Part shown: positions 21,447 to 26,706 of the stretch, piece by piece
Layout of the letters: every line of letters begins with the position of its first letter
Position numbering within the stretch: the first letter of the stretch is position 1
From: Desulfurococcales archaeon
GTDB taxonomy: Archaea > Thermoproteota > Thermoprotei_A > Sulfolobales > Desulfurococcaceae
Assembly: GCA_021163115.1 (NCBI GenBank)
Contig: JAGGXK010000071.1
Location: forward strand, 1-44,273
DNA: 44,273 bases
Direction: 5' to 3'
Made by a program: the position numbers and the translations under genes
Notes under the pieces: generated by a model
Databases searched by the model: none
Seen by the model: only the letters and a program-made list of their open reading frames with translations
Told to the model about the DNA's origin: nothing

Positions 21447-22706
21447 CTAGGGGGTAAGTCTTGTTCTGTCTCTAACGAATAATATAGCCTCTCTAACATT
21501 CTTTAATCCAAGCATGCCCATCATTAGCCTTTCAACACCTAGTCCAAAGCCTCCATGGGGAGGCATGCCATACTTGAATGCTTCTAGGTAGAACTGGAAG
21601 TTGTCGGGGTTTAATCCCTTAAGCTTCATTGCTTCAATAAGTTTTTCGTATCTATGTTCTCTCTGGCCGCCACTAGATATCTCCAATCCCTTGTAGTCTA
21701 GATCGAACTTTCTTGTATGTATTCCATCTTCTTCTCTCATATAGTAAAAGCCTGTTGTTTCAAAGGGGAATTTTGTGATAAAGTATATATCATAGCCTTT
21801 CTCAGCCATGATTTTACCTAGAACTTTTTCTGCAGCCTCACTTAGGTCTTCTCCTTCAGATACCTCTATACCCTCTGATCTAAGGATATCTACTGCTTCT
21901 TCATATGTTAGTCTACGAAATGGTGTACTCAAAGGCTTTAATTCTATGCCAAGGATTTCTAGTTCTTCCCTACATCTATTACGAATGCTGTCAACAATGT
22001 ATTTGATAAGATTCTCTAGAGTGTTCATAACATCCTCTTCACTATCAATGAATCCTTGTTCAACATCTATACCCCATGACTCGTTCAAGTGTCTGGTTGT
22101 ATTGAATTTCTCTGCCCTAAAATAGGGTGTTATCTCATATACCCTGGGTATGCTTGATATCAACATTTGCTTATAGAGCTGAGGGCTTTGGCTTAGATAG
22201 GCTTTTCTTTCAAAATACTTTAGTTCAAAAAGTGTTGCTCCCCCCTCTGCTCCAGCTGCAACTATCTTTGGTGTATGGATTTCAAAGAAGTTATTTTTCT
22301 CAAAATACTCTCTAGCAGCCTTTAATATGGTATTTCTTATACTAAAAATTGCTTTTTCTAAGGGATTTCTCACCAGTAGATACCGGTATCTTATTCTTGT
22401 ATCAAGGAGTGTGGGAACCTTACCAATAGTATCAACTGGTAGCGGTTCTATAGGCTTATTGTACACATAGATCTTCTCTGCAACATATTCTACACCACGC
22501 TTACTCCTCTGAATCTCGGCTTTTTCTCCCTCAAAACACATTGCTGTACCAATAGGCAGCTCTTTTACTTTATTAAAGAGCTCTGGTTCACGCTCCTTTT
22601 TAAAGACAATAACTGTTGGCTTAATATGCCTATTAGTACTCAGCTCTATTATAACTACTTTACCAACAATCTTCTTCCTAATAATCCATCCACATATTCT
22701 TTGCAG
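21447..22706 (-). CDS. aspS: Aspartyl-tRNA synthetase; listed ATG (22541) truncates the OB fold, proposed start CTG at 22704-22706
   Basis: Class II motifs (RVYEITPYFRAE, GFGLGVERLMMGMLGLKNVREA). In-frame upstream translation reads LQRICGWIIRKKIVGKVVIIELSTNRHIKPTVIVFKKEREPELFNKVKELPIGTA-MCFEGEK, i.e. the anticodon-binding OB fold. Confidence 0.9.
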   Translation of the reverse strand: MQRICGWIIRKKIVGKVVIIELSTNRHIKPTVIVFKKEREPELFNKVKELPIGTAMCFEGEKAEIQRSKRGVEYVAEKIYVYNKPIEPLPVDTIGKVPTLLDTRIRYRYLLVRNPLEKAIFSIRNTILKAAREYFEKNNFFEIHTPKIVAAGAEGGATLFELKYFERKAYLSQSPQLYKQMLISSIPRVYEITPYFRAEKFNTTRHLNESWGIDVEQGFIDSEEDVMNTLENLIKYIVDSIRNRCREELEILGIELKPLSTPFRRLTYEEAVDILRSEGIEVSEGEDLSEAAEKVLGKIMAEKGYDIYFITKFPFETTGFYYMREEDGIHTRKFDLDYKGLEISSGGQREHRYEKLIEAMKLKGLNPDNFQFYLEAFKYGMPPHGGFGLGVERLMMGMLGLKNVREAILFVRDRTRLTP

Positions 22707-22838: not shown

Positions 22839-22850
22839 TTTAAAATATAT
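22839..22850 (+). promoter_or_regulatory. TATA-like box for the GC-rich RNA gene
   Basis: tttaaaatatat about 27-38 nt before the first GC-rich base at 22877. Confidence 0.5.
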
Positions 22851-22876
22851 AAGTGATACTAAACACTATAAATAAT

Positions 22877-23058
22877 GGGCCAGCCACCCAGCACCGCTAG
22901 CCGACCCCGGACCCCGGGTAATGGAGTCCAAGGACACACGCTTATGTGTTTTTGGACTAACCTGGGGCAAACCACCGGCTAGCGGCGGCCTCCTAAGTGA
23001 GGCGGGTACCCGGGTGTGGCGCCGGGGGGAGCCTCGGGACCCCTGGGTGGGCTAGGCC
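22877..23058 (+). ncRNA. GC-rich structured RNA gene of unassigned family
   Basis: Very high G+C against an AT-rich background; 5'/3' ends pair (ggcc-agccacccag / ctgggtgggctaggcc); perfect internal pairs CCGCTAGCCG/CGGCTAGCGG, AGTCCAA/TTGGACT, ACACA/TGTGT, GCCTC/GAGGC; TATA-like element upstream; T-run downstream. Confidence 0.75.
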
Positions 23059-23074
23059 TTTTTTGTTTCTTTTT
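23059..23074 (+). terminator. Poly-T terminator of the GC-rich RNA
   Basis: ttttttgtttcttttt immediately after the closing helix. Confidence 0.6.
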
Positions 23075-25751
23075 ATGGTATTTTTGTAGTTACTCTTTTT
23101 CTGATTTCTTCTATTACGATTATTATATGGGTTATGATGAAGATTTCTATGACTTCTATTAGTGGTAATGGAGTTGCTTTTAGTAGCCATGGCATTAGGT
23201 ATATTGGTGCTATAGCTATTATAGCGGCTATTATGTAGCCTAATATATGGTACTTATTTCTTGTAAATCCTATTTCAAGGAGGCTTTTATCTGGGCTCCT
23301 CATATTGAAGCTATGGGCTAGCTCGCTTATTGATAATGCTAGGTATGCAGCTGTTGCAGCAAATAATGGTCTCAGTGATGCAGAGAACCATGTAAGCAGA
23401 GATAATACTACTCCAATGTATCCAAGGAAGTATAGCCCTGTCTTACCCAGTAAAGGCTTAAGAGCTGTAGGAGGCTTCTTCATTACATCAGGCTCGGGGG
23501 GCTCTAGTCCAAGAGTTATAGCTGGTAGGGAATCTGTTACAAGATTGATCCAGAGAATCATTGCAGGGGTTAACAGTAGCTTATCTAACAACAAGATACT
23601 TCCAAGGACAACAAGTACTTCTGCAACATTAGCTGATAACAGGTATAGTGTCGACTTCCTTATATTATTATAGCTTGTTCTCCCCTCTTCTACTGCAGCA
23701 ACTATTGTTGCAAAGTTATCATCTTCCAGAATGAGATCGGCAGCCTCTCTTGCAACATCAGTACCCCTTAAACCCATTGCCACACCAACATCAGCAAGCT
23801 TTAATGCAGGAGCATCATTGACTCCATCACCAGTCATAGCAACTACGTGGCCTTTCTTCTTAAAAGCCTTAACTATACGGAGTTTATGCTCTGGTGAAAC
23901 ACGGGCGAACACAGCCACATTATCGATAATCTTCTCTAATTCCTCATCACCCATTAAATCAAGCTCCCTACCTGTAACCACAGTTTTTCCCTCCAGGGGA
24001 AGCCCTATCATCTCCGCTACAGCCTTAGCTGTTATTGCATGATCCCCTGTAACCATTACAACATTAATACCTGCATCAATAGCCTTCTTTATAGCACCAG
24101 GAACCTCAGGTCTAGGTGGATCAATAAATCCTGTAAACCCTATGAATACAAGATCATTTTCTATATTTTCCTGTTCAGACTCATCTTCTCCTAAGACCCT
24201 GTATCCGTGACCCAAGATCCTTAATCCTTTTGAAGCAAGTTCTTCGGCTATACCTAAGAATTCTTCCTTTTTCTCCTTATTAAGCTCTTTAATAACGCCA
24301 TTAACTATATAGTACCTTGATTTTGATAGAATAGTTTCTGGTGCGCCCTTACTATAAAGTATTCTTTTATTATCTTTTTCTATTACAACGCTCATCATTT
24401 TTCTCTCGCTAGAGAATGGAATCTCATGGATTCTTCTATATTTCCTCCTAATAACTCCTGGATCTATACCAGACTTATATGCTAATACAACAAGAGCAGC
24501 CTCCAATGGATCTCCTATGGGTTTAGGCGGATTCACACTATAATCTACATCACTATTATTACATAATACACTATTCTCTATAAGAAGATCTAGTTCTTCT
24601 AGTTCACCATATCTAAGGACATTACCGTTATAGGTTATTTTGCCCTCCCGTAAATATCCACTACCACTAATCTCTAGAACCCCTTTGGATGGAAGCCAGA
24701 TCCTTGTAACAGTCATCTCATTCCTAGTAAGAGTACCTGTTTTATCTGTGGCAATAACTGTTACACGTCCAAGGCTTTCAACAGCTCCCAGTCTTCTAAC
24801 CAATGCATTCCTCCTAGCCATTCTCATTACTCCTAGTGCTAGTATCATTGTTAGTACAGCTGGTAGTCCCTCCGGTACCGCTGCTACAGCTAACGCTATA
24901 CTTGTAAGCAGTGCTTCAATAGGGGAGGCAGCACCAACAATTATAGCCAGTATGAGTACTGCAACAGCTATACCAATAATTACGCCACCTAACTGCTTGG
25001 CAAGCTTATCCATTTCAACATGGAGCCTTGTCTTCTCTTCAGCGGTCTCAGCAACCATCTGGGCTATCCTACCAAGCTCTGTCTTCATACCAGTAGCAAC
25101 TACAACAGCCTTGCCTGTGCCCCTTACAACATAGGTTCCACTATAAACCATGTTGATTCGATCAGCGAGAGGGGTAAGAGGATCAAGTATGACATCAGCC
25201 TTTTTAGCTATTGGATGGCTTTCACCAGTAAGCATTGACTCATCAACAGATAGGTCCCTTGCTTCAATAAGCCGTGCATCAGCTGCAACTCGATCACCCT
25301 CGCTAAGTATAAGTATATCACCAGGAACTATCTGCCTGGAATCAATCTCCATCAATCTCCCATTTCTCAAAACCCTAGCCTTAGGAATAGCCATGCTCTT
25401 CAACTTCTCAAGAGTCTTCTCAGCCCTATACTCCTGGATAACACCAGCAAAGATCATTATAGCCATTATAGCTATAATGCTATAGGCATCAGATGTCTCA
25501 CCAACAATAATGGCTATAATAGCTGCAGATAAAAGAAGAAGCATAAATAAGTTAAGGATCTGGCCAAGAATGATCTTTAAAAGACTTCTACCACCCTTAG
25601 CTGTTAGCTCATTCAAACCATAGATTCTAAGCCTTTCCTTAACCTCATCATCGGGTAATCCATGCTTAGGATCTGTTTTAAGTTTCTCTAAAACCTCCCT
25701 AGTATTCAGTGCGTGCCACTTATCATTATTCAATGTATTATCTAGCCCCAT
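23073..25751 (-). CDS. Cation-transporting P-type ATPase (calcium-type, PMR1/SERCA-like)
   Basis: [61 protein letters not shown]. Confidence 0.95.
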
Positions 25752-25893
25752 ATATTTCCATTGTTTAAATTCTTAATAAAAGGCTATAAGTTAAATATAT
25801 TATTCACTCCGACACACTTCATAGCTAATTCCAAGAATGAAACCATTTATTTAACAACATATACCCAATATATACTTGGGAGAAGCAGGGGAT

Positions 25894-26706
25894 ATGCCCA
25901 AGAAGAAGAGGCGTTTAAGAAAAATAAAAACACTAGATCAATATTTTTCATTGCAGCCTGAGTCAGTGGAAGATAAAGATAACTCTATAGAAACTACTCT
26001 TATGGAAGAGTTAAACAAGGCTCCTATAACTACTCAGAAGCAAGAACGAGAAACTGTTGTAAAACCTTTACAACACATCCCTGTAGAAGAACCTATTGAA
26101 GAAGAGTCTGAGGAGAATTTTGAAGAGTTTATTGAAGAGATCTTGACGGATCTATTGAAAGCAGATTCTGAGGTAAGAGAAAGCACTTTTAGTAAAAATA
26201 ATGTAGTAAAGGAGCCAACACTACAGGAAATAAGTATGAAGGAGGCTACTTCCAACGGTCTTATAGTAACAGAGAAGCCTGAAGAAGAAAAGGTAGAGAA
26301 ACACGTTTTATCTTCCATAGCCTTGCCAAGCGGAGAGATATTAAGAAAACTTATAGAAAAACCAATTGAACTAGGAAGCATCATTTCATGTAATAACCAA
26401 GGGGAGTGTAGTGATGGAATAAAGATTTCAGAGATCTTTGTAGATAATTTTGGGTTTAGACGTCAAAGAGGCTTCGTACGTACATCCCGTTTACCAATAA
26501 TACTTGACTGGCTTATTGAAGAAGGTGTTGTTAAAAAAGTGCTTCCCAGAGCATACAAGCTTGAGACAAACCGTGGTGCTTTAGCTCTTGTTCCAGAGGA
26601 TTTCATATGCGAGTTAGTGAAAAGATATGGTGTTATTATTAAAAACTATGATTGTAGCAATTACCAAGTAAGTTTAGAGGGTACAAGTAGGAGAAGGAAA
26701 AAATAA
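25894..26706 (+). CDS. Hypothetical protein with acidic low-complexity N-terminal half and compact C-terminal domain
   Basis: ORF; ATG at 25894 preceded by GGGGAT is a better start than the listed TTG at 25876. Confidence 0.75.
   Translation: MPKKKRRLRKIKTLDQYFSLQPESVEDKDNSIETTLMEELNKAPITTQKQERETVVKPLQHIPVEEPIEEESEENFEEFIEEILTDLLKADSEVRESTFSKNNVVKEPTLQEISMKEATSNGLIVTEKPEEEKVEKHVLSSIALPSGEILRKLIEKPIELGSIISCNNQGECSDGIKISEIFVDNFGFRRQRGFVRTSRLPIILDWLIEEGVVKKVLPRAYKLETNRGALALVPEDFICELVKRYGVIIKNYDCSNYQVSLEGTSRRRKK

Follow-up and report, generated by a model that had tools for sequence, protein, structure and literature searches.

A very likely stand-alone non-coding RNA gene with a double pseudoknot beside aspS in Desulfurococcaceae, of a family absent from Rfam

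The window analysed here, a 44,273-nucleotide stretch of DNA from a Desulfurococcales archaeon, carries on its plus strand what is very likely a non-coding RNA gene of about 182 nt (22877..23058), recognised by a match to CM R3 and by covariation among homologues. It lies between aspS, a divergent neighbour on the minus strand (21447..22541; Pfam tRNA-synt_2, E 1.9e-87) whose true start is likely to be near 22.7 kb, and a convergent P-type cation ATPase gene, also on the minus strand (23073..25751; Pfam). The first-pass annotation, made from sequence alone, had described a GC-rich island in AT-rich DNA and had read it as an independent plus-strand structured RNA between these two genes. The island held, since among 182-nt windows the GC maximum falls exactly at 22877 (68.7%), with a mean of 37.7% (sd 4.7) and 50% in the next best non-overlapping stretch; the position held as well, both neighbours being assigned by Pfam. 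RNA folding of 22875-23064 gave -109.8 kcal/mol (z = -5.4), a value that none of 200 shuffles reached, and CM R3 has a single match in the window, at 22878-23058 with 111 bits. The island is very likely an RNA gene; the claim of an independent structured RNA is supported, with transcription inferred rather than measured. Further along, at 25876-26706, the window encodes an uncharacterised protein without a Pfam match, relatives of which sit downstream of the RNA in several genomes.

The TATA-like element noted upstream at first reading, TTTAAAATATATAAG, held: it occupies 22839..22853 on the plus strand, 23 nt before the first G of the window RNA, and in most homologues the same element precedes a conserved GGCYAA start by about 22-24 nt. 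The 3' end, GCTAGGCC (23051..23058, plus strand), contains a GCUA conserved in most homologues. The T-run said to follow the island directly held only in part, for the T6 at 23059..23064 on the plus strand is present, and may be a terminator in this genome, but is missing at that place in most homologues. Terminal GGC/GCU pairing (22878-22883, 23050-23055) seems to extend the closing helix P1 outward by 3 bp, leaving a conserved unpaired YAA bulge at the RNA ends (GGCYAA at the 5' end, GGCUA at the 3' end); both features stand outside the counted structure. Among the 871 base-pair cells of the homologue alignment there are 48 G-U cells and no A-C cells, a pattern that the other strand would reverse, and therefore the plus strand is taken as the RNA.

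Homologues were sought in 40 genomes of the same archaeal family. A plain DNA search returned one real relative (G037; 73% identity, E 2.9e-16), flanked, as in the window, by the ATPase gene and aspS, and a CM seeded on the window and G037 copies found five more (G018, G020, G021, G014 and G019). The seed model, R1, contained two sequences that had been trimmed and in part edited manually in their loops and arms, and served solely for finding and first aligning homologues; R2 and R3 were built from unedited sequence, the second model (R2) from nine such sequences. A scan of AspS neighbourhoods added Staphylothermus sp. AUK105 and two other Desulfurococcales assemblies. With the second model the RNA was detected in 16 of the 40 family genomes, covering 10 of 16 genera, and remained undetected in the other 24; it is carried by the cultured type strains Staphylothermus marinus F1 and S. 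hellenicus P8, which we take to be G021 and G020; in S. marinus the locus is 312003-312182 on the minus strand of the chromosome. In every homologous locus whose fetched stretch includes aspS, the RNA adjoins that gene and is read away from it (at the G014 locus the ATPase side alone is visible), while the downstream neighbour varies by lineage, being the ATPase, L35Ae in Staphylothermus, or an uncharacterised gene.

The RNA was not confidently found in any other family. The second model gave no copy elsewhere among 231 genomes of the class, under strict filters and with part of the candidates scored, and the third model, run on 40 genomes of the order with laxer filters, gave outside the family only one 18-bit match, which was not accepted. 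As far as seen, the RNA family is thus confined to one archaeal family of the Desulfurococcaceae type and is not universal in the order. Several candidates were discarded: a 26-nt DNA match in G017 is due to chance and lies inside a protein-coding gene resembling glycyl-tRNA synthetase; CM matches in G187 (25 bits) and G073 (18 bits) were rejected as unsupported, the former disappearing with R2 and R3; and a mobile origin was set aside, with no match in phage or plasmid collections.

The third model also identified a shorter RNA in a Thermogladius genome, in the same place and on the same strand (E 0.0068). GC-rich, three-armed RNAs of about 125 nt lie beside aspS at L052:3808-3932 and at about 3800-3930 of L057, both on the minus strand in Thermogladius; the two species fold alike at this slot, without a clear K1 or K2 (the pseudoknot helices described below), and their RNAs are likely to be reduced relatives of the island RNA. 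A tRNA gene takes this slot in Thermosphaera and in a second genome of the Desulfurococcaceae (L054:3799-3872, L056:3793-3866), and its flanks form an extra GC-rich helix (GGUGGGGC...GCCCCACC in L054).

Sequence comparison shows that the RNA folds as a four-way junction in which P1 meets the long arm A, the short hairpin B and arm C, all on the plus strand. P1 pairs 22884..22891 with 23043..23050 (8 bp, both-side changes in 4), covarying in homologues. In arm A the 9-bp lower stem leads through an internal loop into stem D1, and a further internal loop separates D1 from hairpin D2. The lower stem joins 22894..22902 to 22977..22985, with both-side changes in 8 of the 9 pairs; D1 (22913..22918 with 22961..22966), placed by the homologue alignment, is conserved, four of its six pairs being invariant and two varying on one side; and the apical hairpin D2 (22925..22958) shows both-side changes in all seven aligned pairs. 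Hairpin B (22988..23003), with both-side changes in three of five pairs, is missing solely in G019. Arm C (23004..23042) is a hairpin with a 10-bp stem, both-side changes in nine pairs, and in homologues a stem of about 10 bp (8 in G019) and a loop of 14-20 nt.

The first-pass annotation had proposed comparative folding as a check, and the alignment of 16 homologous sequences showed covariation. Over 55 pairs, standard pairing holds in 99.1% of cells and both-side changes occur in 40 pairs; the covariation score on the helices was 0.685, compared with 0.199 when shuffled (0 of 500 as high) and at most 0.13 when slid, and an unedited, model-fitted CM alignment without pseudoknots gave nearly the same result (0.684 versus 0.196). 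The helices proposed at first reading all held, being present in the window and supported by covariation in homologues: the pairing of the two ends, the helix CCGCTAGCCG/CGGCTAGCGG, the arm AGTCCAA...TTGGACT and the GCCTC/GAGGC hairpin, which is hairpin B. Missed was the main feature, a loop at 23016-23027 that pairs with 22905-22910 and 22972-22975.

This double pseudoknot joins the loop of arm C to both strands of the arm A internal loop. In K1 the 3' part of the arm C loop pairs with the 5' internal-loop strand (CCCCGG, 22905..22910, with 23022-23027; 6 bp, 100% of cells paired, both-side changes in five of six), and in K2 the 5' part pairs with the 3' strand (CCAC, 22972..22975, with 23016-23019; both-side changes in four of four), so that the window loop reads, in order, the K2 3' strand (23016-23019), a 2-nt spacer and the K1 3' strand (23022-23027). 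K1 takes the forms CCCCGG/CCGGGG in the window, ACCCGG/CCGGGU in G018, CCAGAU/AUCUGG in L051, CCCCGC/GCGGGG in G019 and CCAGGU/ACCUGG in G009; K2 is CCAC/GUGG in the window, and ACUC/GAGU, GGCC/GGCC or ACCC/GGGU among homologues. K1 and K2 alone are paired in 100% of cells, with both-side changes in nine of ten pairs and a covariation score of 0.775, compared with 0.186 when shuffled (0 of 500). The registers of K1 and K2 in A10 were picked by eye, a choice biased towards pairing, and for this reason controls by cross-clade comparison and by sliding were included. In 97 of 98 comparisons the pocket fits its own loop better than a loop from another clade, and a shuffled loop does equally well in 0.05 to 4% of cases, with the weakest result for the window copy. 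By engaging both strands of the arm A internal loop, the arm C loop locks the RNA into a compact double pseudoknot.

The internal loop between D1 and D2 (22919..22925, plus strand) is the place of a K-turn signature in homologues. The K-turn signature, U/N-GA opposite GA, occurs here in 8 of 11 distinct sequences, a number reached in none of 5000 shuffles (mean 1.5). In the window copy it is degenerate, with GA opposite UA and the second GA missing, and the signature is also absent in G019 and G015. Archaeal L7Ae binds K-turn motifs in many RNAs (PMC5539422), and the K-turn in arm A of most homologues is predicted to bind this ribosomal/RNP protein. Such binding is inferred from the signature, which is degenerate in the window copy, and could go either way for the family; because of this inferred contact, a stable RNP is regarded as the likely product.

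No known RNA family accounts for the island. The cmscan that had been proposed as a check was run on the window and homologues; 4227 Rfam families gave no match to the window at gathering thresholds, and at permissive thresholds nothing meaningful was seen around the island up to E = 10, nor in the homologues, so that novelty stands. A whalefall-1 match on L134 was rejected, its 25 bits lying below the cut-off of 37. RF00373 and the other Rfam RNase P models match neither the window nor the homologues, and the archaeal SRP model RF01857 matches neither the island nor its relatives, which is consistent with the earlier statement that RNase P, SRP helix-8 and 5S motifs were lacking; the island RNA is not RNase P, SRP, 5S, tRNA or any of the 4227 families. 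Of the 11 RNA-bearing genomes tested for it, 9 have a separate RF00373 gene, both closed Staphylothermus genomes among them; separate SRP RNAs occur in 8 of 11. Like RNase P RNA, which in archaea has L7Ae K-turns, the island RNA is a stable, GC-rich, pseudoknotted RNA, but it differs in topology; like SRP RNA, for which an L7Ae K-turn is reported in Sulfolobus (PMC5539422), it comes from a GC-rich stand-alone gene, but it is shorter and lacks the helix 8 motif. In Sulfolobus acidocaldarius, L7Ae binds unassigned sRNAs (PMC5539422) that share with the island RNA an archaeal origin, an unknown function and L7Ae contact, the last only inferred for the island RNA, whereas the models used found no island-RNA homologue beyond its own archaeal family. 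No report of this RNA was found in the open-access literature searched, papers beyond that set excepted.

The nearest likeness is to archaeal H/ACA guides, for which the criteria are a lower stem of 7-9 bp, 8-11 layers to the GA pairs (10 when productive) and, 14-16 nt away from the pair that closes the pocket, an ACA box (PMC4652768). Arm A shares the order of stem, internal loop and stem, the last with a K-turn signature in 8 of 11 sequences but not in the window copy. Its covarying lower stem of 9 bp satisfies the first criterion, the layers to the GA pairs number roughly 10 in most homologues when counted by eye, and the two strands of its internal loop form helices that flank a short unpaired spacer. 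In contrast to a guide, the 'target' lies in cis and the arm is embedded in a four-way junction. No ACA or ANA follows the arm A lower stem, where hairpin B comes next, extending the earlier remark that a 3' ACA box is lacking; the 3' pocket strand measures 7-10 nt rather than 5-6; and no target U is conserved, only 6 of the 16 sequences having U as the first spacer base. From clade to clade the pocket sequence changes along with the arm C loop. Because the spacer U is unconserved and the ACA box missing, and because pocket and loop change together, the contact between arm A and loop C appears structural rather than a modification site, and filing the island as an H/ACA RNA was rejected. The favoured function, inferred and held with slightly less confidence than doubt, is that of a constitutive RNP scaffold; an H/ACA guide may have been its ancestor, a descent that rests on geometry alone. 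A bolder reading, no more than possible, is that an H/ACA guide has turned into a self-occupied scaffold whose pocket permanently holds its own loop.

Among the alternatives, a divergent standard RNA (RNase P of type T, SRP RNA or a permuted SRP RNA) is favoured by length and GC-richness and by the failure of the Rfam SRP model to find an SRP RNA in the window's own incomplete genome, where a pattern search for helix 8 also gave no convincing site. Nevertheless, it is all but excluded: closed S. marinus and S. hellenicus, together with G018, carry the island RNA plus canonical SRP and RNase P RNAs, and the island has neither Rfam match nor motif of either. The missing SRP RNA of the window's assembly is likely to reflect its 70% completeness; several other drafts are also without a match. 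The archaeal Rfam SRP model finds nothing in G000, G011, G014, G015, G019, G037, G038, G039 and G040, among which G015, G039 and G040 are more than 95% complete, and these absences may reflect gaps in the assemblies or SRP genes that are divergent or rearranged. Of the two possibilities left by the first-pass annotation, the divergent RNase P or SRP RNA thus failed on the canonical copies elsewhere in closed genomes, while a novel RNA is supported by the lack of an Rfam match, strong covariation, and conserved promoter and synteny. A cis-regulatory leader of the neighbouring gene would fit those lineages in which the next downstream gene is on the same strand (L35Ae in Staphylothermus, the uncharacterised gene elsewhere); it is very unlikely, as that gene differs between lineages and is convergent in the window, aspS is read away from the RNA, and the RNA closes on itself end to end.

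Two functional alternatives to a scaffold remain, both considered unlikely. The RNA might be a working pseudouridine guide of the H/ACA type whose ACA box has been lost, one that either modifies loop C of the same molecule or alternates between this cis loop and a target in trans. That would explain the lower stem, the layer count, the K-turn signature and a bipartite pairing resembling that of guide and target; against it stand the absent ACA or ANA, the long 3' pocket strand, the unconserved spacer U, and pockets that vary with loop C between clades, and hence the lack of a fixed trans target. A ribozyme, ligand-binding or trans-regulatory RNA is suggested by the YAA bulge, conserved and unpaired, that separates P1 from the terminal GGC/GCU pairs, and a double pseudoknot is a typical trait of RNAs that catalyse reactions or bind ligands; however, most loop residues vary, and there is no invariant unpaired core such as ribozymes or riboswitches possess.

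The preferred reading, a stand-alone non-coding RNA gene of about 180 nt belonging to a family absent from Rfam and folded as described, is very likely (about 0.85). Covariation supports nearly every helix, including the double pseudoknot, and the synteny is vertically inherited. Novelty is claimed for the RNA family and the fold it adopts, without a new function having been demonstrated; transcription and function are inferred, without RNA-seq or transcript evidence. Few large structured crenarchaeal RNAs are known beyond rRNA, tRNA, RNase P, SRP and modification guides, and the island RNA is likely to be an as yet undescribed component of RNA machinery. Its presence in two cultured type strains makes the transcript, the fold and the protein partners testable at once. 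If the bolder reading were true, an RNP with L7Ae and perhaps Cbf5 would have taken on a new job, comparable to the H/ACA domain of vertebrate telomerase RNA.
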